A stretch of 64,000 nucleotides of DNA, from positions 868,001-932,000 of the forward strand of contig CM028326.1 of NCBI GenBank assembly GCA_016647705.1, given 5' to 3'. The position numbers were made by a program, and so were the translations under genes. Of this stretch, positions 523-46,567 are shown one piece after another. Every line of letters starts with the position of its first letter. Position 1 is the stretch's first letter. Under the pieces are notes generated by a model. It searched no databases. It had not been told where the DNA came from and saw only the letters and a list, made by a program, of their open reading frames with translations. The stretch comes from Eucommia ulmoides. Taxonomy: Eukaryota; Streptophyta; Magnoliopsida; Garryales; Eucommiaceae.

Positions 523-1684
523 ATGGACAATATCATGACCACCTATACTGATCAAGAAATTCTCAAAACTCAAGCTCACATTTGGAATCATATTTTCAAC
601 TTCATTAACTCTGCCTCCCTAAAATGTGCTGTTCAACTGGGCATACCAGAAGTTATCCATAGCCACGCCAAACCCATGTCTCTGTCAGACCTAGTCGCCG
701 CACTCCCTATCAACCCCTCTAAAGGCCGTTTCGTCTATCGCCTCATGCGAATCCTAGTCCATTCGGGCTTTTTTCTTCAGCAAAAACTTGACCAAGAACC
801 CGAGTATTCCCTCACACTTGCTTCCAGGCTCCTCCTAAAGGACGAACCTTTCAGTGCGAGGTCGCTGCTACTCGTCGAACTCGACCCGATATTGACAAAG
901 CCGTGGGATTTCTTGAGCGAGTGGTTTCAAAACAATGACCCCACGGCTTTTGACACAGCCCATGGGATAGCCTTTTGGGATTATAACGCCAAGGAGCCAA
1001 GACTTGGCGATTTTTTTAATGAGGCCATGGCTAGTGACTCCCGGTTGGTCATAAAGGTTCTTATTGAGGAGTGTAGGGGTGTTTTTGAGGGCTTGAAATC
1101 GCTGGTGGATGTTGGGGGTGGCACTGGATCGGTGGCTCGAGCCATTGCCGGGACATTCCCTGACATGAAGTGCACGGTGCTTGACCTCCCTAATGTAGTC
1201 GCTGGCTTGGAGGGGACCGAGAATTTGGAGTTTGTTGGAGGGGATATGTTTAAGGCCGTGCCCTCTGCTAACGCTGTCTTACTCAAGGTATGCTAAACTA
1301 GAAATGATTAAATTCTTAATACTATGTGTTTAAAAATTCAATGATTCGGTTTATTTTCTTATTGAAAAACGAGAAAAACAGTGGATTTTGCATGACTGGA
1401 GTGACGAAGAATGCGTGGAGATACTAAAGAAGTGTAAAGAGGCAATTCCGAGCAGGGACAAGGGTGGGAAGGTAATCATCATAGACATGCTGATGGAGAA
1501 CCAGAAACAAGACGATGAGTTAGTTGAAGCGCAGCTCTTCTTCGACATGCTGATGATGGTGGTTCTCACTGGTAAAGAAAGAAACGAGAAAGAATGGAAA
1601 AAGCTCTTTGTGGGTGCCGGTTTCAAGGACTACAAGCTTATCCCAATGTTGGGTTTAAGGTCAATCATTGAGGTTTATCCTTGA
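523..1684 (+). CDS. OMT1: class II plant O-methyltransferase (stilbene/flavonoid OMT-like)
   Basis: Predicted cytosolic S-adenosylmethionine-dependent enzyme that methylates a phenolic hydroxyl. Two exons: 523-1287 (255 codons) and 1382-1684, with a 94-bp GT-AG phase-0 intron; product 355 aa, normal for the family. The N-terminal third carries the dimerisation region (around [11 protein letters not shown], residues 32-42). SAM motif [10 protein letters not shown] is at 194-202, LDLP follows near 220 and GGDMF near 239. The catalytic base is expected to be H259 in WILHDW, right at the exon junction. The C-terminus LGLRSIIEVYP is the family ending. The start is the first ATG in frame, in a CC-ATG-G context. 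First intact member of the tandem array; overall resemblance is to grape resveratrol di-O-methyltransferase-like enzymes, but the substrate cannot be assigned. Confidence 0.93.
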
Positions 1685-3721: not shown

Positions 3722-5753
3722 ATGGCTAATAATGAGATACCTACCGAGCTTATGCACAAAGCCAAAGCTCATATTTGGAACCAAATTTTCAGCTTCATAA
3801 ACTCGGCGTCACTAAAATGTGCTGTTCAGCTGGGCATACCAGACATCATCCACAAAAATGGCAAACCCATGATTCTTTCCGAGCTCATTTCCAAACTCCA
3901 AATAAATCCTTCTGAATCCCTCTCTCTCAGTCGCCTCATGCTCGTCTTGGTTCGCTCTGGCTTTTTTTTCTATGATCAAGAACACGGATATTCCCTCACT
4001 CTAGCTTCTAGGCTGCTCCTAAAAGACGAGCCCCATAACGCGAGGTCGTTCTTGCTCGTCGTGTTGGACCCGATTCTGACAATGCCGTTTCGCTTCTTGA
4101 CCGAATGGTTCGGAAACGATGATCCTGCAGCGTTTGACACGGCTCACGGATTAACCTTTTGGGAGTATCACGCCAAGGAACCAAGGCTTGGTGATTTGTT
4201 TAATGATGCCATGGCTAGTGACTCAGGGTTGATTGCGAAAGTGCTTGTTGGGGAGTGTAGAGAAGTTTTTGAAGGCTTGGAATCGATTGTGGATGTTGGG
4301 GGTGGGACAGGAACGGCAGCAATGGCTGTCGCCGAAGCGTTTCCTGGATTGAAGTGCACGGTTCTTGACCTGCCTCATGTAGTTGCTAACTTGGAGGGGA
4401 CTAAGAACTTGGAATTTGTGGGAGGTGATATGTTTCAGGCAATACCATCTGCTAACGCAGTCTTGCTCAAGGTATGTTTTCTCTTGATAATTTTTTGAAC
4501 ATGTCTGCTAATCTCTCTCATATCAATAAAGTTCTAAATTGGCGAGCAGTGGATTCTTCATGACTGGAATGATGAAGAATGCTTGAAGATATTAAAGAAG
4601 TGCAAAGAGGCAATTCCAAACAAGGAGGGTGGTGGAAAGGTAATGTTACTGCACAATTAAAATAAAGAACGAAGTTACCGAATTTTCTTGGGTTGAGTCG
4701 CGGATTAGGTCGCTCTCTTTAAGACGTTTCGCGACTCTGCCTAAAAATCGTGCAAGCAGTATAACAACTCCGTTATCCTCAGGATAAATCAGCCCAAAAT
4801 CACCTCTGTCTAGGACCTTTTTTGCACTGCAGAAGTCCCGAAAACCAAACACCCCCTCCCATACTGTTCTCAAAAAGAACAAACTGCTCGGAAATCGAAA
4901 TAGTACCGAAAAAACTGTTCTATTGAATCGGAACAGTGAAAAAATAAACTGTTTCAGAATAGTTTCGGAACATAACAGAAAGCAATTTACTGTTTCAGAA
5001 CAGATTCGGAAATAAAGAACAATTTAATAAAAAAATGAAGAATAGTTTTGCAATATTTCAGAAGAAAAAATGTTTCTGAATTTGTTCTAGTGTCTCCTTC
5101 AATATTGAAGTGTTCGTCAGTATTTATAGACCAAAATATTGACCCAAAACGTTTCAAAAATTAACGGAAATGTTTCGCAAATTAATTCTCGAAACTGAAA
5201 CGTTCAGATTTTAAAACAAAGGAAACGGTTTCAAGAAAAAAATTATTTTTTTCTAAAAAAAATAAAATAAATAAGTGCCACCTCATCACACGTGCGACGT
5301 GACACTGCCGGACGGCGGCGGCAGCGCGGGCGTGGTAAACTAGTAGGGATGTAACTATTCTCCCCTTCACAAAATGTAAGTACCTCTTGGGGCACACCCT
5401 AAGTATTCCACATACCCCTTGTTATACTGCTCAACACTTCTTCTCCCAATCAACGTGGGATAGAGGGAATAGAGGGAAACTATTTTTGACACTCGTTTTT
5501 TATTAACAAAAAACAATTAAAAATTCATATGTTCCAACAGGTAATTATCATTGACATGGTGTTGGAAAACCAGAGACAAGATGATGAAGCAGTTGAAGCA
5601 CAACTATTCTATGACATGATGATGATGGTCTTGGTCACTGGTAAAGAAAGAAATGAAAAAGATTGGGAGAAGCTCTTTCTGGATGCTGGTTTCCGGGCCT
5701 ATAAGGTCACTCCTGTTCTGGGTTTAAGGTCTCTCATTGAGGTTTATCCTTAA
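3722..5753 (+). CDS. OMT2: O-methyltransferase with an LTR-derived second intron
   Basis: Same family as OMT1. Exons 3722-4471 (250 codons), 4550-4639 (30 codons) and 5541-5753 (70 codons plus stop) give a 350-aa product. Intron 1 (78 bp) is the ancestral one, before WILHDW; the catalytic His is residue 254 and motif I VDVGGGTG is intact. Intron 2 (4640-5540) interrupts the GGK-VIIID segment, which is continuous exon in OMT1, OMT3 and OMT4. It consists of an 896-bp solo LTR plus one 5-bp target duplication, and its removal restores the paralogous reading frame exactly. If it is not spliced, translation meets a TAA within nine codons and loses the last 70 residues. The start ATG at 3722 (CAT-ATG-GCT) gives the MANNE N-terminus like the paralogs. 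Functional only if intron 2 is removed in vivo. Confidence 0.85.
4644..5539 (+). mobile_element. Solo LTR forming intron 2 of OMT2
   Basis: Begins TGTTACTG and ends TTCCAACA (TGTT/AACA inverted ends). It is flanked by perfect 5-bp duplications GGTAA at 4639-4643 and 5540-5544. A TATA-like TATTTATA at 5121-5128 fits a + oriented LTR promoter. No internal coding region or second LTR is present. The donor GT comes from the target sequence (AAG|GTAATG); the acceptor CAG is the LTR terminal CA plus the first G of the right target copy. Confidence 0.85.
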
Positions 5754-5932
5754 GACAAAACATAAATTTCTACTTGTCCAACACAATTCATCGATTGTCC
5801 AGTACTATGTTTGAAATAAATCTTAATTGATTTTATTTCTACTCGAGTACGACCATGGGATGAGTCGAATATATATATTTATTAAAATGGAATGCATTAT
5901 GATCATCAGAAGCGAAAAATGCATTGTAAAAA

Positions 5933-6619
5933 TTAGGGAAAATAAGTGGGAGGTCCTCTATTTAAACTCTAATTGATCAAAAGTTCTACATGTGGTAAAA
6001 AATTTTGATTTAATCCCATCTGTTTTAAAAAGGCGAAAGCCTTGCTCACGTGATAGTCACGCGTCAGTTATATGTAATTACTTTGTGTATAATATTATTG
6101 TATTAGTTACAGGTAATTAATTTTTTTTTTTTTTTTTCCAATTATATGTTTCAATGATATGTAATTTTTTAATTACATGTCTCTGATATGTAACTAAAAA
6201 ATTTGATATTTTTCAGTTACATATTTTAATGATATGTTTAGTTACATGTATCTGATATGTAACTAAAAAATTTAATATTTTTTTAGTTACATCCCAAAAT
6301 ATTATACATATATATGTAATTGTAACATATAACTAATATTATATAACTATATGCAACTAAAAATATCCAAATATGTGTGAAAAGTAACAATTATAAAATT
6401 GTAACTAATATTAGTTACATATAACAGAATTTATTATAAAAAACGAATGTACTCACTAAAGGCTCCCTACAATTCCTATAATATCTCTATAATTTCCGCA
6501 ATGCGGGACTAAAACACAAGTGAAATCTAACTTAAATGACTAAATCAAGATCTAATAACACAAAATGATTTTTCACCAATTAGACTTAAAAAAATGGATT
6601 TTTCACCGATTTTCCCTAA
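5933..6619 (+). mobile_element. MITE family 1, copy A
   Basis: Starts TTAGGGAAAAT and ends ATTTTCCCTAA (terminal inverted repeats). The AT-rich interior is full of 'agttacatgtaact'-like short inverted motifs. Two further copies lie at 19196-19904 (opposite orientation) and 25148-25887. Noncoding. The target duplication is unclear. Lies just downstream of OMT2. Confidence 0.65.
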
Positions 6620-10306: not shown

Positions 10307-11464
10307 ATGGCCAATACTGAGATTGCCATCGATCAAGAGCTTTTTAAAGCACAAGCTCAAATTTGGAACCAAATGTTCAACTTTGTAAACTCTGCCTCCC
10401 TAAAATGTGCAGTTCAACTGGGCATACCAGACATCATCCATAGCCACGGCAAACCCATGTCTCTATCTGACCTAGCCACTGCCCTCCACATCAAACCCTC
10501 TAAAGCCCCATTCCTTTATCGCCTCATGCGAATCCTAGTCCATTCCGGCTTTTTTATTCAGCAAAAGACTGGAAAAGATGACCAAGAACAAGAGTATTCC
10601 CTCACACTTGCTTCGAGGCTCCTCTTAAAGGACCAGAACCTGAGTGCAAGATCACTAGTACTTCTCGAGCTCGATCCAGTCCTGACAAAGCCGTGGGCTT
10701 TCTTGAGTGAATGGTTCCATAATGATGATGAGACCGCGTTTGACACGGCCCATGGGGGTAACATTTGGGATTATGGCGCTAAGGAGCAACGGCTTGGTGA
10801 TCTTTTTAATGAGGCCATGGCTGGTGACTCCCAGTTGGTGACAAAGGTTCTTACTGATGAGTGTAGGGGTGTTTTTGAGGGCTTGGAATCGCTGGTGGAC
10901 ATTGGGGGTGGCACCGGAACAGTGGCTGGAGCCATTGCCAAGACATTCCCCAGCACGAACTGCAAGGTGCTTGACCTCCCTCATGTGGTTGCTGGCTTGG
11001 AGAAGACTGATAACTTGGAGTTTGTGGGAGGAGATATGTTTAAGGCGGTACCCTCTGCTAATGCTGTTTTACTCAAGGTATCCTCTCTTCACCAGTTGCT
11101 TCTTAAAAATATTTAATTAACTAATTTGGGGTCTAAAATCGGGATTCTTCATGACAATCAGTGGGTTCTTCATGACTGGAGCGACAAAGAATGCGTGGAG
11201 ATACTAAAAAAGTGCAAAGAGGCAATTCCTAGCAGAGACAAGGGCGGAAAGGTAATCATCATAGACATAATTGTGGAGAGCCAAAAACAAGACCACAAGT
11301 CAGTTGAAACACAGCTATTCTTTGACTTGGTGATGATGGTGGCGGTCACCGGTAAAGAAAGAACCAAGAAAGAATGGGAAAAGATCTTCGCGTGTGCTGG
11401 TTTTAGGGACTATAAGGTTATTTCAGCGCTGGGTTTGAGGTCCCTCATTGAGGTTTATCCTTGA
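10307..11464 (+). CDS. OMT3: class II plant O-methyltransferase
   Basis: Two exons, 10307-11077 (257 codons) and 11162-11464 (100 codons plus stop), with an 84-bp phase-0 intron; product 357 aa. Motif I reads LVDIGGGTG. The catalytic region reads WVLHDW, with Val in place of the Ile of its paralogs; the His (residue 261) is kept. The ATG at 10307 gives the family N-terminus MANTE; the upstream in-frame codon is only a TTG. The exon-2 copy contains the AAG-GTAATC segment that in OMT2 carries the new intron, here uninterrupted. The 3' flank still resembles that of OMT1, showing that the duplicated unit included the 3' UTR. Confidence 0.92.
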
Positions 11465-12934: not shown

Positions 12935-13527
12935 TGTTGTGCGGAAGCGTGTCGGGTGGACCCAACACAGAACAAATATTATGGGAGATGAAATGAAAAC
13001 ACACACACTCACAAACAAGAACACAAGTTTTAACGAGGTTCGGCAATTTCGCCTACTTCTCGGGAGCAACTATGGAACTTCTTTATTTGACAATAAAATA
13101 CAAATAAAGAATACAAAACAAAGTCTTAAAACAACTTAAGACACTTGTGCAAGAATTCACTCAATTGTGACTATTGAGGAATTGAACTCTCTCTCAACTT
13201 GTACTTCTTCAATTGAGAGATATTGTTTTCTTCAATTGTGAGATGATTTTTCTTCAAAGCTTATGGTCTCAATTTATAGGGAATGCTTGAGGCTCATAAT
13301 CTAGTGTGAATAAGATCCTTAGTGTGAATAAGATCCTTAGAACCTTCAACAATTGAGGTAGCCACAATGTTGGAATCAATTGTTGGAACCAATTTTGAAT
13401 AACTCCATCTACCATTTTTGACCCATTTTTCTTCTTCCCTTTCATACCAAACAAATGTGTGAAAAATCTATTCACACCATGAAAAATGTTAGCCCAATTT
13501 TGTTGACAATCAAGCCAACAACCAACA
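12935..13527 (-). repeat. Copia 3' LTR
   Basis: 593-bp LTR reading TGTTGTGCGG...ACCAACA on the + strand. It differs from the partner LTR at two positions (t/c in 'ctactyctcggg', g/t in 'catttttkaccc'). Confidence 0.93.
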
Positions 13528-13635
13528 ATCTCCACCTTGGCGAGATTTTCAAATGCCACCATCACCACAACGTTAATATGAATTCTCATACTACACCTCC
13601 AATAGAACCAATAGTTGCTCCTCCAAAAATCATAC

Positions 13636-16600
13636 TTATGTATGAACAATATTGGCCAAGTTTAGGCAGTGAAGAAACTTGGCGCTTCCAACGACTTTCG
13701 TCAACATATCTGCAGGGTTATCGACTGTCCCAATCTTCGTAAGAAGAATAACACCTGCATCAACAATTTCTCGAACAAAGTGGAATCGAACATCAATATG
13801 TTTGGTCCGAGCATGATGAACTTGGTTCTTCGCTAGATGTATTGCGCTTTGACTGTCGCAATATATTTCCACCTGTTTCTGATGAAGACCCAAGTCTGAA
13901 ATCAGTTCATGTAACCAAATGGCTTCCTTCATGGCTTCTCCAGCAGCCATGTATTCAGCCTCCGTGGTAGACAATGCTACAGTGGACTGCAAAGTAGACC
14001 TCCAACTGACTGGACCATTAGCCATGGTAAATAAATACCCGGTAGTAGACCGTCGCTTATCCAAATCACCAGCGTAGTCTGAATCCACATATCCAATGAG
14101 AAATCTTTCGACTTCCATTTGATTTCTCGCAAATTTCAAACCCACATCCTCAGTACCTTTGATATACTTCAAAATCCATTTTGCAGCTTCCCAATGCTTC
14201 TTTCCTGGATCATGCATGTATCTGCTAACCATACTAACAGCTTGAGAAATATCAGGTCTTGTGCATACCATTGCGTACATAAGGCTTCCAATCAAACTTG
14301 CATACGGTACTTGAGCCATATACATTCTTTCTTCATTTGTACTCGGTGACAGTTCCACACTTAATTTAAAGTGAGGAGCCAAAGGTGTATTAACCGGTTT
14401 GGTATTTTCATCTATACCAAATCGATTTAGTACATTTTTCAAATACTGTTTCTGTGTCAGCCACACAGTCCCAGCCGTTCTGTCACGAGTAATTTCCATG
14501 CCCAAAATTTTCTTGGCTTCGCCAAGATCCTTCATTTCGAATTCCTTCCGAAGTTGGGCTTTCAACTTCTCAATCTCCACCAAACTCTTAGATGCGATTA
14601 ACATATCATCAACATATAAGAGCAAATAAATGAAGGTACCATTTTTCAATTTACGGAAGTACACACAATGATCATATTGACTTCGCGTAAAATTATGTAC
14701 CTTCATAAATTTGTCAAATCTCAAATACCACTGTCGTGGAGATTGCTTTAAACCATACAGGGACCTCTGCAACTTGCACACCATTTGTTCTTTGCCAGCA
14801 GCTTTGAAACCATCAGGTTGCGACATATAAATTTCCTCATCCAAATCTCCATGTAGAAAAGCAGTTTTCACATCAAGCTGCGCCAACTCCAAGCCAAATT
14901 GTGCGACCATGGCAAGTAAAATTCGAATGGATGAATGCTTTACAACTGGTGAAAAGACTTCATTGTAGTCAATCCCTTCCTTTTGAGCATACCCCTTTGC
15001 AACCAGTCTTGCCTTGAATCTCACACTGTTTTTCCCATGAGAGTCCTCCTTCTTTGCATATACCCATTTACACCCAATTGCTTTTTTTCTTTTTGGTAAC
15101 TCTACGAGTTCCCAAGTCATATTCTTATGGAGAGAATCCAATTCTTCATTCATGGCTTTATTCCATTCCACACTTTCAGAACTTTGCACAGCTTCTTTAT
15201 ATGTGGTTGGAATATCTTCACTGACAATTGGTAGGGCATAAGCAACCATATCCGCAAACTTTGCTGGTTTTCGAATTGTTCTTTTTGGTTTGCTAGCTGC
15301 TATCGATTCTTCAATTTGTGGAGGCCTTTGAGGAGAGGGCTCCACCTCAATTCTATCTTCCGTATCCCCGTCATTTTCATCATCTGAATAAGTGTCTTCT
15401 GAAAAAGAATCTACTGGACTTTGAATCTCCACTTGCTGCACTAGACTGCCTTTTTTATTCTCTTCATTCGACACTTTCTTCTTCATAAATTTACTTTCAT
15501 CGAAAGTAACATCCCTGCTCAAGATCATTTTCTTCAATGCAGGGCACCATAATCTGAACCCTTTCACTCTACTGCTGAAGCCCAGAAATATGGCCTCCTT
15601 TGCCCTTGGATCAAGTTTGCTATCTTCGGTCACGTGAAAGAACGCCGAGCAACCGAAGATACGCAAAGAATCATAATCTGATGCAGGTGATCCTGACCAC
15701 ACTTCAATAGGAGTTTTTCCATCAATTGCAGTAGAAGGCAGACGGTTAATTAGATGACATGCATAAGTAACCGCTTCTGCCCAAAAACTCTTCGTCAAAC
15801 CGGAATTGGATAGCATGCACCTTACTTTTTCAAGTAAAGTCCGATTCATACGTTCCGCTACACCATTCTGTTGTGGAGTCTTTTTCACAGAAAAATACCT
15901 CACTATTCCTTCTTGTTTGCACAAGGAATAAAATGGATCGGACGTGTATTCACCGCCGTTGTCCGATCTCAACACCTTGATCTTCCTTCCGGTTTGATTC
16001 TCCACCCTCTTCTTCCAAGCCAAGAAGATCTCTAGGACTTGATACTTGTGTTTCATAGTATACACCCAGAGTTTTCTTGAGAAGTCATCTACAAATGTAA
16101 CAAACCAGTGCCTTCCACTCAAAGATGCAGTCTTCGTTGGACCCCAAACATCAGTATGCACATAGTCTAGGATCCCTTTTGTTTTGTGGATGGCCGTGCC
16201 AAATTTAACTCTGGTTTGCTTGCCCAGCACACAGTGCTCACAGAAGTCCATCTTACAAGTCTTGGCACCCTTCAAAAGACCCTGCTTTACTATGCCTTGC
16301 ATGGCCTTCTCTCCAGCATGCCCAAGCCTCATGTGCCAAAGCTTGGTTGTATCAATAGCAGTTTCTACGGTGGCAGCTCCACCGATAACAGTCTTTCCTT
16401 GTAAGAAATACAAATTATTTCTCCTTAGGCCTTTCAAGACAACCATAGCACCTCGTGTGACTTTCAACGATCCAGCTTCCATGATGACTTTGAAACCATT
16501 TGATTCCAAAGCACCCAAAGAAATTAGATTCCTCTTCAAATCTGGTACATACCAGACATTGGTCAGATCCCTCGTGGTTCCGTCGTGCAGCTTCAATCGG

Positions 16601-17655
16601 ATCACGCCAACCCCTTTCCTTTCACACGTATGATCATTTCCCATAAGAACTGATCCACCACTACCGAGATCCAAACTGGTGAAACAATCCGTATCAGGAC
16701 ACATATGATAGGAGCACGCGGAGTCAAGAATCCACTCGTCTGAGCCAACTCCAGCTGTAGTAGCCAGAGCAAAATTTGAATCATCATCTTCAATTTGGGC
16801 CACGTTTGCATTTGTATTACCCCTGTTTTTCAGCTTGGGGCAATCCTTCTTCCAATGACCCTTTTCACGGCAAAAAGCACATTCATCCTTTGCCGGAATC
16901 TTCCTGCCATTTGATGAAACTCCTCTCGACTTGGAACGAGAGTTGTTTCTACCTTTGTTGTGCTTTTTGGTCTCCGATCTGCCCCTCATCATCAAAGCAG
17001 TAGATGTATCAATTTGAGACACCTTGTCACGTCTACGAACTTCGTTATTCATCAACGCGTCTGATACATCCTTGAATTTCACCGAGTCTTTTCCGTAGAT
17101 CAAAGTGGTTGCCAAGTGTTCGTATGAATCCGGTAAGGAATTCAACAACACAAGGGCTTTGTCCTCATCCTTGATCTCTTCATCCAGGTTCAATAGATCG
17201 GCAATCAACTTGTTGAAGTCATTCAAATGATCCATCATAGATGTACCTTCTTGGTATTGAAATCGGAAAAGCTTTCGCTTCAGATACAACCGATTCTCAA
17301 TACTCTTTGTCATGTACTTTTCTTCAAGTACTCTCCATAAGTTCTTCGCCATCGTTTCTCTCATTACAAAGTATTTGACGTTCTTTGCAAGACAGAGACG
17401 AATAGAACCGCACGCCATTTTGTTGATCTTCAACCACTCTGCTTTCTCCATAAAATCTGGTTTTTCCTCCAAGGTTATTTCCAAACCCTGTTGAACCAGC
17501 ATATCTATCATCTCACATTGCCACATGCCAAAACTGTTTGTTCCATCAAATTTTTCAATATCAAATTTGCCATTTGATATGGACAGTTTTGTTTGTGAAC
17601 TGGAAGAGGTTGATGGCGATTCAATCTCCTCCGTTTTCGATTCGATCTCCGCCAT
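13636..17655 (-). CDS. Copia gag-pol polyprotein (1339 aa)
   Basis: A single open frame carries all copia domains in order. The gag region covers about 1-250. A CCHC zinc knuckle (CAFCREKGHWKKDC) is near 259-272 and the aspartic protease site LDSAC near 310-314. The pre-integrase motif HMRLGH is near 442. The integrase triad D502, D565, E601 has exactly 35 residues between the last two. Reverse transcriptase has YVDD near 1015. RNase H acidic residues lie in YVDSDY, TEAEY and CDSQ near 1190-1270. Integrase before RT defines Ty1/copia. There is no stop or frameshift, in contrast to the Tat element in this window. Start ATG at 17655 lies 35 bp inside the 5' LTR. Lineage within copia not assigned. 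Confidence 0.95.
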   Translation of the reverse strand: MAEIESKTEEIESPSTSSSSQTKLSISNGKFDIEKFDGTNSFGMWQCEMIDMLVQQGLEITLEEKPDFMEKAEWLKINKMACGSIRLCLAKNVKYFVMRETMAKNLWRVLEEKYMTKSIENRLYLKRKLFRFQYQEGTSMMDHLNDFNKLIADLLNLDEEIKDEDKALVLLNSLPDSYEHLATTLIYGKDSVKFKDVSDALMNNEVRRRDKVSQIDTSTALMMRGRSETKKHNKGRNNSRSKSRGVSSNGRKIPAKDECAFCREKGHWKKDCPKLKNRGNTNANVAQIEDDDSNFALATTAGVGSDEWILDSACSYHMCPDTDCFTSLDLGSGGSVLMGNDHTCERKGVGVIRLKLHDGTTRDLTNVWYVPDLKRNLISLGALESNGFKVIMEAGSLKVTRGAMVVLKGLRRNNLYFLQGKTVIGGAATVETAIDTTKLWHMRLGHAGEKAMQGIVKQGLLKGAKTCKMDFCEHCVLGKQTRVKFGTAIHKTKGILDYVHTDVWGPTKTASLSGRHWFVTFVDDFSRKLWVYTMKHKYQVLEIFLAWKKRVENQTGRKIKVLRSDNGGEYTSDPFYSLCKQEGIVRYFSVKKTPQQNGVAERMNRTLLEKVRCMLSNSGLTKSFWAEAVTYACHLINRLPSTAIDGKTPIEVWSGSPASDYDSLRIFGCSAFFHVTEDSKLDPRAKEAIFLGFSSRVKGFRLWCPALKKMILSRDVTFDESKFMKKKVSNEENKKGSLVQQVEIQSPVDSFSEDTYSDDENDGDTEDRIEVEPSPQRPPQIEESIAASKPKRTIRKPAKFADMVAYALPIVSEDIPTTYKEAVQSSESVEWNKAMNEELDSLHKNMTWELVELPKRKKAIGCKWVYAKKEDSHGKNSVRFKARLVAKGYAQKEGIDYNEVFSPVVKHSSIRILLAMVAQFGLELAQLDVKTAFLHGDLDEEIYMSQPDGFKAAGKEQMVCKLQRSLYGLKQSPRQWYLRFDKFMKVHNFTRSQYDHCVYFRKLKNGTFIYLLLYVDDMLIASKSLVEIEKLKAQLRKEFEMKDLGEAKKILGMEITRDRTAGTVWLTQKQYLKNVLNRFGIDENTKPVNTPLAPHFKLSVELSPSTNEERMYMAQVPYASLIGSLMYAMVCTRPDISQAVSMVSRYMHDPGKKHWEAAKWILKYIKGTEDVGLKFARNQMEVERFLIGYVDSDYAGDLDKRRSTTGYLFTMANGPVSWRSTLQSTVALSTTEAEYMAAGEAMKEAIWLHELISDLGLHQKQVEIYCDSQSAIHLAKNQVHHARTKHIDVRFHFVREIVDAGVILLTKIGTVDNPADMLTKVVGSAKFLHCLNLANIVHT

Positions 17656-17690
17656 AATCCCAAGCTCTCAACCGGAGCTCTGATACCACT

Positions 17691-18283
17691 TGTTGTGCGG
17701 AAGCGTGTCGGGTGGACCCAACACAGAACAAATATTATGGGAGATGAAATGAAAACACACACACTCACAAACAAGAACACAAGTTTTAACGAGGTTCGGC
17801 AATTTCGCCTACTCCTCGGGAGCAACTATGGAACTTCTTTATTTGACAATAAAATACAAATAAAGAATACAAAACAAAGTCTTAAAACAACTTAAGACAC
17901 TTGTGCAAGAATTCACTCAATTGTGACTATTGAGGAATTGAACTCTCTCTCAACTTGTACTTCTTCAATTGAGAGATATTGTTTTCTTCAATTGTGAGAT
18001 GATTTTTCTTCAAAGCTTATGGTCTCAATTTATAGGGAATGCTTGAGGCTCATAATCTAGTGTGAATAAGATCCTTAGTGTGAATAAGATCCTTAGAACC
18101 TTCAACAATTGAGGTAGCCACAATGTTGGAATCAATTGTTGGAACCAATTTTGAATAACTCCATCTACCATTTTTTACCCATTTTTCTTCTTCCCTTTCA
18201 TACCAAACAAATGTGTGAAAAATCTATTCACACCATGAAAAATGTTAGCCCAATTTTGTTGACAATCAAGCCAACAACCAACA
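17691..18283 (-). repeat. Copia 5' LTR
   Basis: 593-bp partner of 12935-13527, directly adjoining the tRNA-Met-type primer-binding site at 17677-17688. Confidence 0.93.
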
Positions 18284-19195: not shown

Positions 19196-19498
19196 AATGG
19201 AAAAATTGGTGAAAACTCAATTTTTTTAGGTCTAATGGATGAAAAGTCCTTATGTATTATTAGGTTTTGATTTAATCCTTTAAGTTAGATTTCACTTGTG
19301 TTTTACTCCCGCATTACAGGAATTGTAGGGATATTGCATGGATTATAGGGAATCTTTTAATGAGTACATTCGATTTTTATAGTGTAAGTGAATTCTGTTA
19401 CATGTAACTAATGTTAATTATAATTTCATAATTATTACTTTTCACACATATTTGAATATTTTTAGTTACATGTGTTTATATAATATTAGTTACATATT

Positions 19499-19545
<47 letters not shown>

Positions 19546-19904
19546 TGACGTTATTGAAAAAATATCAAACTTTTTAATTACATATTAGAGACATGTAATT
19601 AAAAAGTTATAACTGAAAAATATTAAACTTTTTAGTTACATATCAGAGACATGTAACTAAAAAATTACATATTATTGAAATATGTAACTGAAAAAAAAAT
19701 AAAAAATAAAAAAAATTAGTTACCTGTAACTAATACAGTGATATTACATAAGAAAATAGTTACATGTAGCTAACGCGTGATTATCACATGAGTAAGGTTT
19801 TCGCGTTTTTAAAAGAAATGAGATTAAATCAAAAGTTTTTACCATATGTAGGACTTTTGATCAATTAGAGCTTAAATATAGGACCTCCTACCCATTGTCC
19901 CTAT
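19196..19904 (-). mobile_element. MITE family 1, copy B
   Basis: Reverse-oriented relative of 5933-6619: GGAAAAATTGGTGAAAA at the left, a GTCCCTAT-type end at the right, and the same 'cacgtgat..' and repeated 'agttacat' interior. An (AT)n run at about 19503-19541 has expanded within it. Confidence 0.55.
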
Positions 19905-25996: not shown

Positions 25997-27428
25997 ATGG
26001 CCAATACTGATACCGCCACTGATCAAGAGCTGCTCAAAGCACAAGCTCATGTTTGGAACCAAATCCTCAACTACATCAACTCTTCCTCACTCAAATGTGC
26101 TGTTCAACTGGGTATACCAGACATCATCCACCGCCATGGCAAACCCATGCCTTTGTCTGACCTAATCACCGCTCTCCCCATCACCCATTCCAAAGCCCTA
26201 TTCATCCATCGCCTCATGCGTGTCCTCGTCCACTCCGGCTTCTTTCTTCAACAAAATAACGACCAATCAAAACCAGAGTTTTCCCTCACACTCGCTTCCA
26301 GCCTTCTCCTGAAGGACGGGCGTTTCAGCACAAGACCACTGTCTCTTGTCTTACTCGATCCGATTTTGACAAAGCCATGGGATTTCTTGAGCCAGTGGTT
26401 CCAAAACGATGACCCCACGGCGTTCGACACCGCCCACGGGATGCCCTTCTGGGACTATTGCGCAAATAAGGAGCCGAAATTTGGTGAACTTTTCAATGAG
26501 GCCATGGCTAGAGACTCCCAGCTGGTGGAAAAGGTGATTCTTGGCGAGTGTAGGGGTGTTTTTGAAGGGTTGAAGTCGCTGGTCGACGTTGGGGGTGGCA
26601 CCGGAACAATGGCACGAGCCATCGCCGAGACAATCCCCGGCATGAAGTGCTCGGTGCTTGACCTTCCACACGTCGTTGCCGGCGTGGAGGGAACTGAGAA
26701 TTTGGAGTTCGTTGGAGGGGATATGTTTAAGGCGGTACCTTCTGCTAACGCAGTCTTTCTCAAGGTACGTTAAACTAAAATTGTTTAAAGCATTTTCACT
26801 TTTTAAATTTAAACCTCCAAATTTTGGTCCCTATAATTTCAATTTAAATATATAACGTACGCCTTAAAATTTTGTAGTGATCCCACTCCAGTCCAAATTA
26901 ATTGCTCCATTACAACTTTGTTTGGAAAAATATCATCTATTGTGCACCCTTAAGGACATTTGAAAAGATCATGTTTTATTTGATTAGTCATAATGGAGAT
27001 TACTTAATTAATTACACGGTCTCTTTTACCGTAAAGTAAGGAAGACTCTTCCCCTCATTAATAAATGACATCAAATATATAAATTTCCCATTAATCTTTC
27101 ATACTTATTTGAAATGACAAAGCAGTGGATTCTTCACGACTGGAACGATGAAGACTGTGTGAAGATATTGAAGAAGTGCAAAGAGGCAATTCCATATAAG
27201 GACAAAGGTGGGAAGATAATCATCGTTGACATCGTTATGGAGAGCCAAAAACAAGACCATAAGTCAGTTGAAACACAATTTTTCTTCGACCTATTGATGA
27301 TGATGGCGGTCACGGGTAAAGAGAGAAATGAGAACGAATGGGAAAATCTTTTCCTGGGTGCCGGTTTCAGGGACTATAAGATTATCCCAGTCCTGGGTTT
27401 AAGGTCAATCATTGAGGTTTATCCTTAG
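25997..27428 (+). CDS. OMT4: class II plant O-methyltransferase
   Basis: Exons 25997-26764 (256 codons) and 27126-27428 (100 codons plus stop) with a 361-bp phase-0 intron, longer than in OMT1-3; product 356 aa. Motif [22 protein letters not shown] and WILHDW (His260) are all intact, and it ends LGLRSIIEVYP. The ATG at 25997 gives MANTDTATDQ, identical to OMT7. An in-frame ATG at 25964 would add 11 residues but lies very close to a TATATA-like box (about 25931), so it is probably at or before the cap site. The AGCATGAAAAGCAT promoter core of OMT1/3 is absent; a MITE occupies its place. Confidence 0.92.
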
Positions 27429-32496: not shown

Positions 32497-35400
32497 GTAT
32501 TTCTTTACAGAATCCGAGTTTAAGGGCTCGGGAAATACATCACCATCCATTTCCTAGAGAATCAACGCTCCACCGCTCAAAGCCTTATGAACAACAAAAG
32601 GACCTTCCCAATTTGGCGCGAACTTACCCTTAGCTTTATCTTGGAAATGAAAGATTTTCTTCAATACTAACTCACCGACCTTGAAGACTCTAGGGTATAC
32701 CCGTTTATCATGAGCTCTAGTAATCCTCTGTCTGTAACACTATCCGTGGCATATCGCTGTCAGCCGCTTTTCATCGATTAAACAAAGTTGGTCCAACCGT
32801 TGTTGTACCCATTCAGTTTCATCAAGCTCGGCCTCTATGAGCACTCGTAGAGATGGAATTTCCACCTCGGCTGGTATCACCGCTTCTGTGCCATAAACCA
32901 GAGAATAGGGGGTTGCCCCTGTCGAGGTCCAAACCGAGGTTCGGTAAGCCATCAAAGCATATGGCAGCATATCATCCCACTCTTTATAATTGTCAATCAT
33001 CTTCCGTAGAATTTTCTTTATATTTTTGTTGGCGGCTTCTACTGCTCCATTTATTTTTGGACGGTAAGGCGCTGAGTTTTTGTGCTCGATCTTAAACTGC
33101 TGACATATTTTCTGTATTTCTGAACCCTTCAGGTTTTTAGCATTGTCGGTTATCAATGTTTGCGGCAAACCGTATCTTGACACAATATTTTCTTTGATGA
33201 ATCGAGCTACTATTTTTTGAGTCACTCGGGTTAAGGAAACAGCTTCTACCCACTTGGAAAAATAATCAATTGCCACCAGGATAAAGCGATGACCACTTGG
33301 CACCTTAGGGGTAACTTTCCCAATAACGTCCATACCCCACATTGAGAAGGGCCATGGGGCCGCCAAGCAATGAAGGTGCGAAGGTGGGACATGGATTTGA
33401 TCACCATGAATCTGACACTTATGGCATCTTCAAACAAACTGCACGCAGTCGCTTTCCATCGTTAGCCAAAAATGACCGGTCCTCAGGATCTTCTTGGCAA
33501 GCATGAAGCCGCTCATGTGAGGTCCACATATGCCACCATGGACCTCTTTTATCAACTGGATAGCCTCTTCGACTCCAACACATCTCAACAGGCCCATGTC
33601 AGGGGAGCGTTTGTACAGTGTCTCCCCGCTTAGGAAGAATTGGCCTGCTAACCTCCGGAGAATTTTCCGATCAACACTTGATGCCCCTTCCGGATACTCC
33701 TGATTTTTCAGAAAGTTCTTTATGTCATGGTACCACGGGTCTTTGGCTGGCTCAGATTCAAGCTGGCAACAGTGGGCCGGTCGGCGTTGAACTCGGATCA
33801 CCATCGGAATGATATCATCATCCTCTCGAGTGATAGATATCATAGATGCCAAGGTAGCTAAGGCATCGGCGAAGTCATTTTTTAGCCTCGGTATGCTTTC
33901 AAATTCTATTATTGTAAATTGCTCGCACAACTCCAGGAGGTGATTATTATAGGCTATCAAGGTCGGATCTCTCGTGGCATATTTATCCGTCACCTGATTG
34001 ATTATCAGCTCAGAATCTCCGAACACTAGCAACTTTTTGATTTTCATATCGACAGTCAGCTGGAGTCCTAGAATACAGGCTTCGTAATCAGCTCGATTAT
34101 TTGTGCTCTGGAACTTCAACTTGGAAGCCACTGGATAATGCTGTTTGCCCGGAGAAACCAGAACGGCTCCGATTCCAGCCCCTCGAGAGTTCACTGCTCC
34201 ATCAAAATATATTTTCCAGACTGTTTCCTCATTTTCTTCATCCACCGCATGAATCGACTCGTCAGGGAATAGCGTCTCAAGAGGCTGGTTATCTATTTGA
34301 GCTGGACAACTAGCCAACTGATCCGCTATCGCTTGACCCTTCACTGACTTTTGGGTCTTGTAGATGATATCGAACTCCGTCAGCAGCATCTGCCATTTTG
34401 CAACTTTTCCTGACAGAATCGGCTTCTCGAAGATGTATTTTAAGGGATCCATCCTGGCTATCAAGTAGGTAGTCAGTGGGAGTATATAATGGCGCAGTCT
34501 TTGAGCGGACCAAGCCAATGCACAACAGGTCCTCTCCAGCAAGGTATAATTTTCCTCATACTTCGTGAAGCGCTTGCTGAGGTAGTAGATGGCTTGCTCC
34601 TTCTTTCCAAATTTATCCAGTTGCCCAAGAATAGCTCCCATGGAGGAGTCGAGAACTGACAAATATAGTAATAACGGAACCTTCTCCCGAGGCGGCACTA
34701 GAACGGGAGGGTTCGTTAGATAGACTTTAATTTTCTCCAAGGCATTCTGGCAATCTGCATTCCATCGCCCGTCACTTTCTTTTCGAAGTAGCTTAAAGAT
34801 TGGCTCACAAGTGGCAGTGAGTTGGAAGATGAATCGGGTTATGAAATTTAATCGCCCCAGAAAACCTCAGATTTCTTTCTCATTTCTCGGTGGCGGCATC
34901 TTACGAATGGCCTTCGTCTTTGCAGGATCAATCTCGATTCCATGGCGATTTACCATGAAACCAAGAAGTTTTTCGGAAGCCACCCCAAACGCGCATTTTG
35001 CTGGATTGAGCTTGAGCTGGTACTTTCGAAGTCTGTCGAACACCTTTTTCAAATGGCAGAGATGATTCTCGTTCTCCTGTAATTTAACGATCATGTCATC
35101 TACATATACCTCTATCTCCTTGTGCATCATATCATGAAAGAGGGTCATCATTGCTCTTTGGTATGTTGCCCCGGCGTTTTTGAGACCGAAAGGCATCGCC
35201 CTATAGCAAAAGACTCCCCATGGGGTAGTGAAGGCTATCTTTTCTCGATCTTTCTCATCCATCAGAATCTGATTATAGCCAGAGAACCCATCGGCAAAAG
35301 AATAGAGCTTTCGCCCCGCAGTATTGTCGATGATGATGTGAATGTTTGGCAGTGGAAAATCATCTTTTGGACTCGCCCGGTTGAGATCACGATAGTCCAC

Positions 35401-35956
35401 GCAGACTCTGATTTTTCCCGAGGACTTTGGCACGGGAACGACATTTGAGAGCCATTCACTGTAGTTACAGACTTCAATAATTCGGGCATTGAATTGCTTC
35501 ACAATCTCCTCCTTGACCTCGAGGCTGACAGCGGACCTCAGTTTCCTCAACTTTTGTTTGACTGGTACACTCCCCGGCTTTAGCGGCAGCTTATGGGCCA
35601 CGATACTCTTGTCCAGTCCTACCATGTCATCGTAGGACCAGGCAAAGATATCTTGGTAGGAAATTAAGAGCGTTGTCAACTCTTTCTTTTCCAGAGTCAT
35701 GAGGGCTGATCCAATCTTTACTTCCTTCAACTCTTCCGAGGTCCCCAAGTTTATCAACTCGGTCTCATCATTACTGGGAATCGGCTTGTTCTCGAACTCC
35801 GTGAAATCTTTTCGGATCTCACCATCGTCTGGCTGGCAAGAGTCATCTTCTGCTTCCACTCCCATCGGGTTATGGTCTGGTTCTGCATTGAAATCATACT
35901 TATCGCACTCTGGCTCAGTTATATCGCATGCATCATACACTGGTGTTTTAGACATC
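32497..35956 (-). pseudogene. Tat pol: RT, RNase H, second RNase H, integrase
   Basis: Domains in order: RT with ADGFSGYNQ and YVDD (about 35090); RNase H with LSVLDSSMGAILGQ; archaeal-type RNase H with YFDGAVNSRGAGIGAVL (about 34190); integrase HHCC zinc region (about 33440-33560); and catalytic core with AIDYFSKW, TDNAKN and the VEAANKN glutamate. In-frame stops break it near 34868, 33432 and 32741. Each is one C-to-T (coding-strand) change from a plausible sense codon. The frame itself is unbroken, so only point nonsense changes inactivate this part. The conserved tail after the last stop continues to about 32497. Confidence 0.9.
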
Positions 35957-36110
35957 CTGAATGCATAAAATTTAAACATTTAAACCATATGTCGGATAAA
36001 ACAGAATTGCATTCATTAAATATAAAAAACCATTACAAAGCAAAATCCCTTTCCATCTAGAAGGCAAGGTGGATGGAGGGATGACCAACAGAAAATCTCC
36101 CTAAGTTTAC
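35957..36110 (-). other. Putative Ogre/Tat-type intron between gag-pro and pol
   Basis: A 154-nt noncoding gap with GTAAAC at its 5' end (36110 downward, - strand) and TTATGCATTCAG at its 3' end. Removing it joins the upstream frame (..QAF) to the RT frame (RMSKTPVYD..) without a shift. Ogre elements are known to splice a short intron between protease and RT; the application here is inference from sites and frame. Confidence 0.6.
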
Positions 36111-37473
36111 CGAAACGCCTGGCGAATTGGGAGAGAACAAGAATCCCAATTCTGCAGCTTTTCTTTTCCCTTGGTTCGAATACCAGACCCATGACTTGGC
36201 CCTGCCTCGTCTCTCATGATTACATTAACAGCTTCCTTGATCATTACTCTCTCAGGGTACAACTTAAATCCTGCGGTCTCCTTCCCTTTGTTGATGGTTT
36301 CTGCTGGATAGGGGAAAGTGACCCGGATATGAGGAATTTTCATTGGCTGGTCGTCTGGGGATCCATCCCTTTTCTTCCGGAAGAACTTCACCCTGTCTGC
36401 TTTTATCGGCTCGTATCCCAATCCGAATCTCCCCCTCTTCTCCTTGACTTCTATCGGTTCTGTAATTCCGTCTAGATTCTTGCCCAAACCTTTCCCGGGA
36501 ATGCAATCCCGAGACTTCATTTCTTTAGCAACGAAGGCCACAGTGTTAGACAGTGATGGTGTCATCTCGTGTCCTCCTTCCTTCACAAATGTAGCATTCG
36601 CAACGTCGAACACGTGATAGGAGGCTTCAATCTTCTCCTTCTCCTTTCCGTCATCTGTTAACGGGACATGCCGACTATCGCTTGATGGAAAGGTATGATA
36701 TCTGAATCAGCCCTGATCACGTACAGTGTGTCATTAATGATAAACTTGATCTTCTTATGTAGAGATGAAGGCACTGCCCCAGCGTTATGGATCCACGGCC
36801 TCCCCAACAACAGGTTGTACGAAGCAGGTATGTCGAGCACTTGGAACTTTTCATTGAACTGTATTGGACCATTTTCAATTGGCAGGTCAATCTCTCCAAC
36901 GCTATCTCTCCTAGCCCCATCGAATGCTTGGATAACCGTCTTAGACGATCGAACCTGTGATAGATTTATCCCCATTTCTTCCAGGGTCGACAAATGACAG
37001 ATATTTAGTGCCGATCCATTGTCAATCAACACCCGAGCTATGAACATTCCATGGCTTTCGACCGTGATATTCAAAGGCTTGTTGTGACCTGTTCCATCAT
37101 CGTCCATCTCGTCATCTGTGAAAGTGATGGTGTTAGATCCTAAGACCTGCTCGACCAAAGTGACAAACTTCTCCGGAGAGATCGTGCTGGGCAAGTGGGC
37201 TTCATTTAGGACTTTCAGCAGTGCCTGTCTATGTACTTCTGAGGATAGGAGTAGTGAGAGCATCGAGATTTGCGCTGGTGCTTTGCTGAGTTGCTCCACT
37301 ATCTTGTATTCTGAATTCTTCATTGCCTTTAGGAAGTCGTGAGCCTCCGGTTCTGACACTGGATTTTTCAAGGCCCCTCTTGGTTCCCTCACAGGAATCC
37401 TGATAAAATCCTGTGGCGTATACACTCTTCCAGATCGAGTGATTCCACTGGTTTCTCCTACTGAGATTGGCAA
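36111..37473 (-). pseudogene. Tat protease and G-patch-like segment
   Basis: Aspartic protease region with VLIDNGSALNI (D-N-G-S active site) around 37030, ending at a stop near 36658. A one-base deletion near there separates it from a second segment. That segment has a glycine-rich GKGLGKNLDGI...GRFGLGYEP motif (about 36410-36500) resembling the G-patch-like module of Tat polyproteins. Confidence 0.8.
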
Positions 37474-37739
37474 TTCTTCTCATTCTCCTGTTTTAGCGAC
37501 GATCTCATAATTCCATGGAACCTTATTGAGATTTTCCACAATCTTTTGGATTGGAAAAAACAAAACTAGAGATTTCTCCAGTTTTTGGGCTACCCTTTCT
37601 ATATGTAATTCGAACCCTCTGTAGAGAACCTCCGGGTGTAAATAAACACCACCGATATCAATCACATCAACTTCTTCTTCGACCTCCTCTGTGAAAATTA
37701 GATTGACGCCACTTCCTGAGGAGGCGTGTTCAGGCAACG

Positions 37740-39513
37740 GATTTTGCTGACAATTTGGCGTACCGGCCTCAGGTTTTTTAGGAAACGTGATGGCTCCAGT
37801 TCGTATAAACTCCCGGATTTTGTCTTTTAGCTGAAAGCATTGCTCAGTCGCATGTCCTCTGGTTCCCGAGTGGTATTCACAGAAAGCATTTGAAGAAGCT
37901 ACTTTACTCCCAGGTTTAACTTCGTAGAATGGAAGGGGCGTCAGTATCCCCTACTTCAAACAATTCCGGTACAACTCGGTGATCGAAACCGGAAGGTCTT
38001 GTAGTTCTCTGTTGTCGTTCTGGAAATTTTTCCCAGTAGCATGAGGTAGAAGGTCTTGGTGGTATTGGGTTCCTGACTTTGGAGTGCGGTTAGGAATTTG
38101 AGGTGGGGTGTTCGGGCGTGGTTGATAGGTATGGTAAGAGGGTGTTGGGTAGGTTTGAGGGTAATATTGAGGAATGTGGTTTTGATAAGGGGGAGGTACA
38201 TTTTGGTAATAGCGGGGGCGGCTTTGGGAATAGGGTTGGTTTTGAGGATAATTTTGGTTTTGGAGATTTTGAGGAGGGTAGTTGTGATATTGGTTGTTCT
38301 GGTTCGGGTAGTTCTGGGGACAAGAAGCTTGGGGGTAGTTCTGGTAATGGGTTTGCCGAGGGGAAACGACAACAGCTACTTCATTTTCTTTCATCTTTAG
38401 CGGGGCTGACCTTTTCGTCAGATTGGATTGGGCCCCTTCAATTTTTCCGCTCCTTATTCCTTCTTCCGTCACCTCGGCCTGTTTGATCGCATCGCCGAAA
38501 GAAACCACTGCTATGCTCGAGAGATCTCGATAGAACGGCGGTGACTGAATTGACTTGAATATCTCTAACTGAGCCTCCTCGCTCAGCTTAGGGACAACTT
38601 TGGCAGCCTCTTCCCTCCAACGAGCAGTATACATCCAGAAACTTTCGTCTTTATTTTTCAGTATCTGGTAGAGGGTATTGCGGTCTGGCGCGGCATCCTT
38701 ATTGTACACATATTGCTCACAGAAGGCCTCTACCAGATCTTCAAATGTTTTAATCTGTGATAGCTCCAGGGTCATGTACCAGTTGAGAGCCGGTCCTTTC
38801 AACGATCTCCGAAACATCTTTAGGCAAAGGTCTTCGTTCCGAGCATGAATTCCTAACTCCTCTTTGTAAATACTGACATGCCATTCTGGAGGGCCAGTGC
38901 CATCATATTTTGTGAACTCTGGAACCACGAAATTTTCTGGGTACACAATCCCGGGTGGTGCTGACAACTCCTTGTACGTCACTTTCCTGGACGGCTTCTC
39001 CTTTTGCCATTCTTCCATAGTTTTCTCCAATTTCTCCATTTTCAGAAGCCAAGCCGGTGGAGGGCCATTCTCTTCTTTGTTTTCAGTTTCAATGGCCAGG
39101 GCCGGTTGGCTATCATTTGAATTGTTTGGTGGAGCAACGACCCTCTCCGGGTGAATGAGGATCTGCGGGGCGGCGGGGGCCGAGCCCTCTGGCGAGGCCT
39201 GATAGACATGCCCCTGGATGGGATATGTCGGAGCTCCATAGGCGAAAGGATGAGGGCCCATCTGAGGTCCATAGTAGACCGGAATTGCAAAGTTCGGGCC
39301 GACGTGGTTCGGATTCGGCCCTGAGTTCTCCATCCCAATACTTGCAGGGTTTCAATTTGGGGATTCAGTCACAGGAGTCCCGTTGGACGGAGGAATAGGC
39401 ACCTCCTGAGGTCAGCTAAGTTCGTTGATCATTTCCATCAACCTGTCAATAGTTTCCTGCATCTGAGCTATCTGGATCGTTCGGGGAGATTCAGGATTGC
39501 TTTCTGATGTCAT
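37740..39513 (-). pseudogene. Tat gag
   Basis: From the ATG at 39513. It includes a retrotransposon gag core (W-H-V-S-I-Y...LKGPALNWYMTL, about 38700-38880), a Pro/Gln/Asn/Tyr-rich low-complexity stretch (about 38080-38350) and a variant zinc knuckle CEYHSGTRGHATEQC (about 37850-37890). Stops near 39416, 39357 and 37951 interrupt it, and another lies at about 37480 between gag and protease. Confidence 0.85.
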
Positions 39514-44914: not shown

Positions 44915-45908
44915 TTTCGTCCCCACGAATAAATAAAAACTGCTAATGTTTGCGGAAACTATATATATTACTACGCGTGTGTTATTTACACAATGTGCTT
45001 AAACGGTAAATGTTTATTGTATATGCAAAATTGTGTTTATGTTGTTGTTATACAAACAAACTGGAAAAATTTCAGTGAAATCTCCTGTCATTTGGAAAAT
45101 TTATAGGGACATTTCTTTCCATTTTGAAAATATCATCGATACCCATTGTGACTTAAAAAACCCAAATACGACACCCCAAAAGTAGGTTGGAATTATGGTG
45201 AAGTAATAATTTTAGATTTTATTTTATCAGTGTACTCTTCTATTATTTACAATCTCTTAAACAATTAAAAAAATCTTTAAAATCTTAAATATAAAATTCA
45301 TGCAACAATGAGAAATTCTCTGTCTATTTGATAGAAAAATTAATTATGTTGAATTAAAATAAAAAATTATATTTAATTAAAAATAAAATAAAATTACACT
45401 ATAACTGAAATACTTATAATTTGGTCAACAATTTTTTCGAAAAAGGGACTTGAGAAAAAAGAGAGAAGGGAAAAAAATACTTCACGAACAATGTTGATAT
45501 ATTTATTTATTTATTTATTATTTTTTGTGCAATGAACATAAATTTTCTTTAAAATCAATTGATGGAATTTTCTTACTAATGATTAAAAGTATGTTTAGAA
45601 TTAATCCAAACAATTATCCCATTGGATAGGTAATTGAATAAATTAAATTTGAAGAATCATCTTAAAATTCTTATTGGAATACTAATTTTATACGTGACAT
45701 ACTAGTAAGTGTTTGTGCTTAAAATTTCAATCAACTCTATATTAATATAAACTTGAATGATATGCGATCTACAAAATTACTATTAATAAAAAAATTAGGA
45801 TCTCTCAAAATATATGAAGTAAGAGATGCAAATATCTCAAAATATCATCTTCTTTTTCTATGACTTTATCCTCTCTTCTTCTCCATGTTCGGATTCAGAT
45901 AGTCAATA
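44915..45908. other. DEFL1 3' UTR and AT-rich spacer
   Basis: Homology to the DEFL2 3' flank continues to about 45030. The rest is AT-rich with no gene. Confidence 0.4.
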
Positions 45909-46567
45909 GCTCGAACACCCTCATGTCTTGCCGGCTTGGAGAGAACTGAGAATTTGGAGTTTGTTCATGCTTCATCGACCGCGATGATCAAAAACTTGTT
46001 CGGTTAAACATGTCGATGTTCCATTAATTAATCTTCATGCTCATTTGAATGACAAACAATGGATTCTTCGTGACTGGAGTGACAAGGATCGTGTGAAAAT
46101 ATTAAAGAAGTGCAAAGAGGTTATTCCGAGTAGCGAAAGGGTGGGAAGGTAATCATCATAGACATGGTAATGAAGAGCCAAAAACAACAAGACCACGAGT
46201 TGCTTGAAACTCAACTTTTCTTTGACCAACTTACAATGTTGTTGATCGTCGATAAAGATAGAAGCGAGAAAGAATGGCAAAATCTTTTTTACGGGTGTTG
46301 GTTTCAGGGGCTATAAGATTATCCTAGTAGTAGGTTTAATGTCAATAATAGAGTTTTTTTTTTTTTTTTTTTTTAAGCAAATGGATATATATTAATAAAG
46401 GATATATTACTAAAGGGGGCCTCCCTTGCTACACGGTAAAAATTACCACGTAGACTGCAAGACCTCCACAAACACTACCATTACATAGTTTCAAACAGGG
46501 ACTGCTAGCCCCTAATCAAGGGAGACATCCCGGGGCTCGGTCAAGGATAATTGATGTTTATCCTTGA
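45909..46567 (+). pseudogene. OMT5 pseudogene
   Basis: Only 57 bp of exon 1 survive (45909-45965, matching the OMT7 LELPHVVAGLEGTENLEFV region). Then comes a short intron remnant and an exon 2 starting at 46060. The splice acceptor AG is mutated to AA before TGG. A 1-bp deletion near 46136 ('gcgaaaggg' against 'gggacaaggg') shifts the frame. A LINE-type fragment (46354-46544) sits between the codons for the last residues, and the original tail with stop resumes to 46567. The 3' flank still resembles the OMT 3' UTRs. Confidence 0.88.
46354..46544 (-). mobile_element. LINE 3'-end insertion in OMT5
   Basis: Starts with T21 (46354-46374; poly-A on the - strand). An imperfect target duplication flanks it (AATAATAGAG before, GATAATTGATG after), as expected of target-primed reverse transcription. 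Same family as 23246-23460 and 47057-47213. Confidence 0.65.

Follow-up and report, generated by a model that had tools for sequence, protein, structure and literature searches.

How introns originate has long been an open question, and few recent cases still allow the causative event to be read. The gene OMT2, part of a tandem O-methyltransferase cluster in the plant Eucommia ulmoides, raises the question in concrete form: can a retrotransposon that lands in an exon leave behind an intron whose removal gives back the original coding sequence? The DNA analysed here (the window) is a stretch of 64,000 nucleotides, positions 868,001 to 932,000 of contig CM028326.1 in assembly GCA_016647705.1, and coordinates are counted from its first letter. 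Judged by the domains of its predicted product, OMT2 is a plant O-methyltransferase of the Methyltransf_2 type. Its parts are listed below; a slash within a motif marks a border.

3722..4471, plus strand: exon 1, with the ATG at 3722; Pfam Dimerisation and Methyltransf_2 are found on the spliced protein
4472..4549, plus strand: intron 1, at the LLK/W position common to OMT1, OMT3 and OMT4
4550..4639, plus strand: exon 2, with the last codons ...GGA AAG
4640..5540, plus strand: proposed new intron 2, phase 0, 901 nt, with the GT-AG ends and in-frame removal expected of a spliceosomal (U2) intron
5541..5753, plus strand: exon 3, 70 codons and TAA

Joining 3722-4471, 4550-4639 and 5541-5753 gives a protein of 350 amino acids with no internal stop, on which Pfam finds both domains at full length (Methyltransf_2, 8.6e-59; Dimerisation, 4.8e-18) and whose best solved relative by sequence is the O-methyltransferase PoOMT1 (9waz, 3.2e-138). 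The alignment of this protein with OMT1, OMT3 and OMT4 is free of gaps over the junction GGK/VIIID, which bears out the claim of an earlier, sequence-only reading that cutting from donor to acceptor restores the codons. With the insert retained, translation would run K-VMLLHN-stop, ending six residues past the K and losing 70 of the 350 residues.

What, then, separates the two coding parts? The insert is 896 bp long (4644-5539, TGTTACTGCACA...TATGTTCCAACA), lies between two copies of GGTAA and ends in TGTT...AACA (TGTTAC...CCAACA), thus belonging to the TG...CA type; LTRs as a rule begin with TG and end with CA, on either strand. Intron 2 holds the GTAA of the left copy, the LTR and the G of the right copy, and nothing else (GTAATG...CAACAG). 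The sequence-only reading had parsed the 901-bp extra intron as an 896-bp TGTT...AACA solo LTR plus one GGTAA copy, and this is confirmed at base level. Two matching 5-mers are expected beside an LTR by chance in 1 of 1024 cases at equal base use, and the GGTAA pair is taken to be a true target duplication because the LTR borders equal those of other family copies and were not chosen to fit. This is an LTR insertion into an exon with a target duplication. The features that it brought, or that lie within it, are these.

4639..4643, plus strand: left target duplication GGTAA, giving the exon-final G and the donor GTAA
4644..5539, minus strand (own sense strand): solo LTR of a Ty1/Copia family, assigned by family copies, ends, and RVT_2 in relatives
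5122..5129, minus strand: TATA-like box CTATAAAT, on the LTR sense strand, the same strand as RVT_2
5503..5507, plus strand: candidate branch point TTAAC, with its A at 5506, -35 from the 3' splice site
5540..5544, plus strand: right target duplication GGTAA, whose G completes the CA/G acceptor

Both splice sites are composite. The donor (G/GTAA-TG) joins the target copy to the TG of the LTR, and the acceptor combines the terminal CA of the LTR with the G of the right target copy, as had been proposed and as the border sequence CAACAG bears out.

The same LTR occurs elsewhere in the genome, where the sequence-only reading had suggested looking for it. The search covered 946.7 Mb in 391 contigs and scored 40 of 2151 candidates, so that copy number is a lower bound; it returned at least 67 match rows including the window's own, and in at least 24 others the match covers 894 or more of the 896 bases. 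Within the window blastn found no second copy of the LTR, only matches of at most 44 nt. Twenty LTR regions were examined, 13 with one end-to-end copy and seven with two, and an exact 5-bp duplication stands at the family's own ends in nine of them. These comprise the single LTRs L012, L024, L025 and L028 (the last duplication a T-run, and weak) and the paired L010, L011, L016, L017 and L018 (the match at L010 was obtained with the outer of two possible right ends). In eight of the 11 regions without an exact duplication a single LTR stands beside internal sequence: one internal side follows the LTR in L013, L014, L015 and L026, and the other side precedes it in L020, L021, L023 and L027. The remaining three are L022, which is ambiguous, L019, where 4 of 5 bases match, and L009, whose right border was guessed. 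The CA end has been lost on one or both LTRs in L017 and L018. The L013 and L010 copies, some 81 kb apart on contig C7, are preceded by a common left flank (AGAAAAAGTTGT) and form a pair in the LTR tree, which suggests that one arose from the other by segmental duplication.

Elements other than LTRs may also have short inverted ends like TGTT/AACA and a short duplication, and the insert might on these features be a MITE, an introner or a non-autonomous DNA element. Seven of its relatives are direct LTR pairs around internal sequences of 3.7-5.5 kb, and both of the internals scanned (L010 and L011, in short open frames) contain RVT_2, the Copia reverse transcriptase; a mobile unit of another kind was rejected on this evidence and is extremely improbable. 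RVT_2 in these two internals reads in the opposite direction to the LTR as given here; together with the TATA-like box on the minus strand, it places the insertion antisense to OMT2. What stands in the gene is one LTR, with no internal sequence and with its duplication intact, that is, a solo LTR.

The state of the site before the insertion can be read from the paralogs.

1471..1472, plus strand: OMT1 empty site AAG/GTAATC in continuous exon, by paralog comparison
11251..11252, plus strand: OMT3 empty site AAG/GTAATC in continuous exon, by paralog comparison
27215..27216, plus strand: OMT4 homologous site AAG/ATAATC in continuous exon, with no GT, by paralog comparison

Within the window and a further two 10-kb stretches next to it, all five other OMT copies that cover the site are continuous, the remaining two being the OMT5 relic (46060-46312, reading AAG/GTAATC) and OMT7, whose exon 2 (L030) reads AAG/ATAATC. 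An AAG/GTAA site in plain exon had been claimed for OMT1, OMT3 and OMT4; the continuous exon stands for all three, and the motif fails in OMT4. The assembly appears to be that of a haploid (PMC7603500), in which case a second allele would be absent from it. Could the LTR have landed within an intron that was already present? AG/GT is a usual intron site, which would suit such an origin, and an ancestral intron was the case that the sequence-only reading had itself named as fatal to its proposal. The content of the intron, only the LTR and one target copy, leaves no older intron hidden at the site; the target copies coincide with the exon ends, and five of five cluster paralogs are continuous. 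A pre-existing intron was rejected for these reasons, and its likelihood is minute.

Taken together, the borders, the family and the empty sites suggest a course of events for OMT2. A Ty1/Copia element would have inserted antisense into the then-last exon at AAA/GGTAA/TT, duplicating GGTAA; later, most likely through recombination between its two LTRs, just one of these would have remained. The donor G/GTAATG would derive from the left target copy, and the acceptor CAG from the terminal CA of the LTR with the first G of the right copy. With both sites at its outer borders, a full-length element would show the same donor and acceptor; splicing may have shielded the gene from the start, with the internal loss merely making the intron shorter. 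Orientation would be irrelevant, because TG...CA ends read identically on either strand. The spliceosome would take out 4640-5540, the flanking codons would rejoin as before, and a full-length O-methyltransferase would still be made.

How good are these splice sites? The sequence-only reading had described GTAATG as a strong donor derived from the left copy. Its origin is as described; its strength is middling. AAG/GTAATG has neither G at +5 nor T at +6, and an approximate dicot matrix gives it 8.5, compared with 10.9, 9.9, 9.2 and 6.2 for the donors of the four intron-1 sequences; of the GT sites in 4472-5760 it is the fourth. By the same approximate matrix a GT site at 5376, inside the LTR, scores 8.8, slightly above the proposed donor. 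Directly behind the acceptor, at 5541-5546, lies the donor-like CAG/GTAATT, which scores 10.5 on that approximate matrix; the right border thus combines an acceptor with an adjoining donor-like sequence and may be compared with the dual-specific sites described in the portion of PMC10809524 used here. A YTNAY scan upstream of the 3' splice site gives, besides the candidate branch point, matches at -52, -39 and -14. The sense strand of intron 2 is A-rich and not U-rich, with 27% T against 36-41% in the four intron-1 sequences, and the LTR strand sense to OMT2 carries five AATAAA motifs, which could end transcripts early.

A middling donor, a low U content and the competing donor-like sites at 5376 and 5541 (as ranked by the approximate matrix) are what partial or conditional splicing would lead one to expect. 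OMT2 would then make the full-length enzyme together with a truncated product of 286 residues (280 OMT2 residues and VMLLHN), and retention of the intron would act as a switch. An intact frame requires just enough correct splicing, and the sequence holds no sign of two products. Such a switch is conceivable and somewhat doubtful; it overlaps with seamless removal of the intron and does not exclude it. Exact splicing in the cell is itself likely, given the anatomy of the splice sites and the intact reading frame.

How long has the gene lived with its insert? In an LTR tree of 28 rows (OMT2, 13 single and 14 paired), the OMT2 LTR is sister to the solo LTR L012 (support 0.95, K2P 0.139) and has a terminal branch of 0.081. 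The substitution rate used for Eucommia is 8.25e-9, as given in the part of PMC7603500 used here. At this rate the branch corresponds to at most about 9.8 Myr, an upper limit set by the copies sampled, as scores were given to 40 of the 2151 candidates in the genome search and a closer copy may exist. K2P within LTR pairs is 0.062-0.119 in six copies, or about 3.8-7.2 Myr at 8.25e-9; L009, for which the end was a guess, has 0.141.

An age of this order bears on whether OMT2 could be a young pseudogene, its last exon broken by the LTR, its transcripts retaining the LTR or ending in it, and its frame intact through recency. The A-rich insert and its AATAAA motifs would fit, and a dead OMT2 would not be odd in this cluster, where three of the seven OMT copies in reach are relics or bear stops: the OMT5 relic (45891-46357), the OMT6 relic (60022-60330, only part of exon 1) and OMT7 (L030:237-537, with a stop codon in exon 2). 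Outside the LTR, however, the spliced reading frame of OMT2 has no stop and no frameshift, and the splice sites at both borders restore that frame exactly. The dN of the OMT2 branch is lower in exon 3 (0.078) than upstream (0.131), a comparison of limited power by which the sequence following the LTR shows no relaxation. In a simulation, likewise of limited power, with the indel rate taken from six LTR pairs and the upper bound used as age, neutral decay keeps the frame intact with P of 0.22, 0.05, 0.014 and 0.001 at d of 0.02, 0.04, 0.06 and 0.08; the true P may be several-fold higher, because the age is an upper bound and because methylated LTRs probably mutate faster than genes. Against OMT1, OMT3 and OMT4, OMT2 has a dN/dS of 0.21-0.28 (YN00 and ML). 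Low dN/dS was rejected as proof of selection after the insertion, since most of the OMT2 branch, with a three-point dS of about 0.6-0.7, is older than the insertion.

The intact frame and the unrelaxed exon 3 favour a spliced, working OMT2, and a young pseudogene is unlikely. That OMT2 is spliced exactly at 4639/5541 and is a working gene, with partial retention still allowed, is given a probability of roughly 0.78. The intron birth proposed by the sequence-only reading is supported at the DNA level and likely at the RNA level.

Other repeats lie in the window. A young, apparently complete element inside the OMT cluster at 12935-18283, Ty1/Copia-like by eye, has two 593-nt LTRs with 2 mismatches, a target duplication GTGGG and an open frame of 1339 aa on the minus strand. 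Minus-strand frames at 32740-39333 resemble by eye a fragmented Gypsy-type polyprotein (integrase, reverse transcriptase, gag-like). An inverted repeat pair of about 700 bp, 80% alike, occupies 5934-6616 and 19199-19903, and its first copy starts about 180 bp past the OMT2 stop codon.

Would other insertions of this kind be spliced as readily? If a general rule held, any 5-bp duplication beginning with GGT would give a G/GT donor and a CAG acceptor at the outer borders, and the element would be removed seamlessly, full-length or solo, in either orientation. GGT would suffice because the CA of the LTR supplies the A of the acceptor, and such a target would thus be about four times commoner than AGGT: in four OMT coding sequences GGT starts at 1.9% of positions, against 0.49% for AGGT. 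LTR retrotransposons might by this rule, drawn from the one locus OMT2, be pre-adapted intron makers through duplications that start with GGT, and in land plants they might be giving rise to introns repeatedly and unnoticed, a generalization that is offered as speculative. Among the nine other duplication-bearing insertions only L017 has a duplication starting with GGT (GGTTT), and no frame longer than 47 aa spans its empty site. Open frames across the joined flanks, stop to stop, reach 136 aa in L011, 262 aa in L018 and 42-80 aa in the other seven. Pfam gave nothing above cut-off on the L011 and L018 frames (no match for L011; one below-cut-off match, 0.02, for L018), and OMT2 is the only one of the 10 duplication-bearing insertions checked that has a known protein family across the empty site. 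Frames and Pfam thus place none of the nine further family insertions in a coding exon, and are all that argues against such a position for any of them. The full-length member L018:592-6860, with its 262-aa flank-spanning frame, lies possibly near a gene's 5' end.

Several known systems share parts of this arrangement. Among plant transposon introns, Giroux et al. 1994 reportedly described one derived from Ds in a maize gene; Ds is a hAT DNA transposon with 8-bp duplications, unlike the LTR in OMT2. Doc, the source of an intron in Drosophila, is a LINE and not an LTR element. The intron that it formed in GM26034 is, like that of OMT2, a single retrotransposon insertion with visible target duplications; it added five amino acids where OMT2 has none added (PMC3296678). 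The comparisons here and below draw on portions of the papers cited. Transposon-made introns are an accepted mechanism with few documented cases, and the table of Yenerall and Zhou 2012 has 35 transposon events in Oryza, Drosophila, Oikopleura and Zea; the main text of that paper contains neither the word "LTR" nor "retrotransposon" (PMC3443670). The AGGT model set out there resembles OMT2 in that insertion at a protosplice site creates flanking duplications that become donor and acceptor and leave the coding sequence unchanged. It differs in duplicating AGGT, whereas OMT2 duplicates only GGTAA and takes the acceptor A from the CA of the LTR (PMC3443670).

In grasses, SMART elements have altered the structure of some genes, and the three examples described in the portion used are not seamless intron births (PMC3281118); in olive, a Copia insertion occupies an intron of PIN2b, and another variety later acquired exon sequence from parts of the element (PMC9312197). 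A non-exhaustive literature search, weak evidence of absence, found no naturally occurring solo-LTR intron whose splice sites are split, and no paper on Eucommia OMT gene structure was found among the matches listed. What appears new at OMT2 is a candidate seamless land-plant intron from a solo LTR, whose CA end would give the acceptor A so that a GGT target suffices.

A precedent is ONSEN, a Copia element whose exonic insertion in Arabidopsis is spliced out whole according to cDNA (PMC12112155). As proposed for OMT2, a plant Ty1/Copia element in an exon acts as a new intron. ONSEN, with its cDNA, is a new, experimental, full-length insertion, and OMT2 has a degenerate solo LTR in a reference assembly; and the portion of the ONSEN paper used here describes no splice sites derived from the target duplication, in contrast to the composite target/LTR sites of OMT2 (PMC12112155). 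Introners, too, are born of transposable elements, take their splice sites wholly or partly from target duplications and leave mRNA length mostly unchanged; they form families of similar introns in many genes (PMC9860276). One event was seen here, at OMT2, and it involves an ordinary retrotransposon family. Land plants yielded no introners in the same paper (PMC9860276). At OMT2 a single locus displays the donor element, its orientation, the target duplication, the empty paralogs and the frame together, and if its splicing is real, OMT2 would stand beside these systems as a clean land-plant case of intron birth by an LTR retrotransposon.
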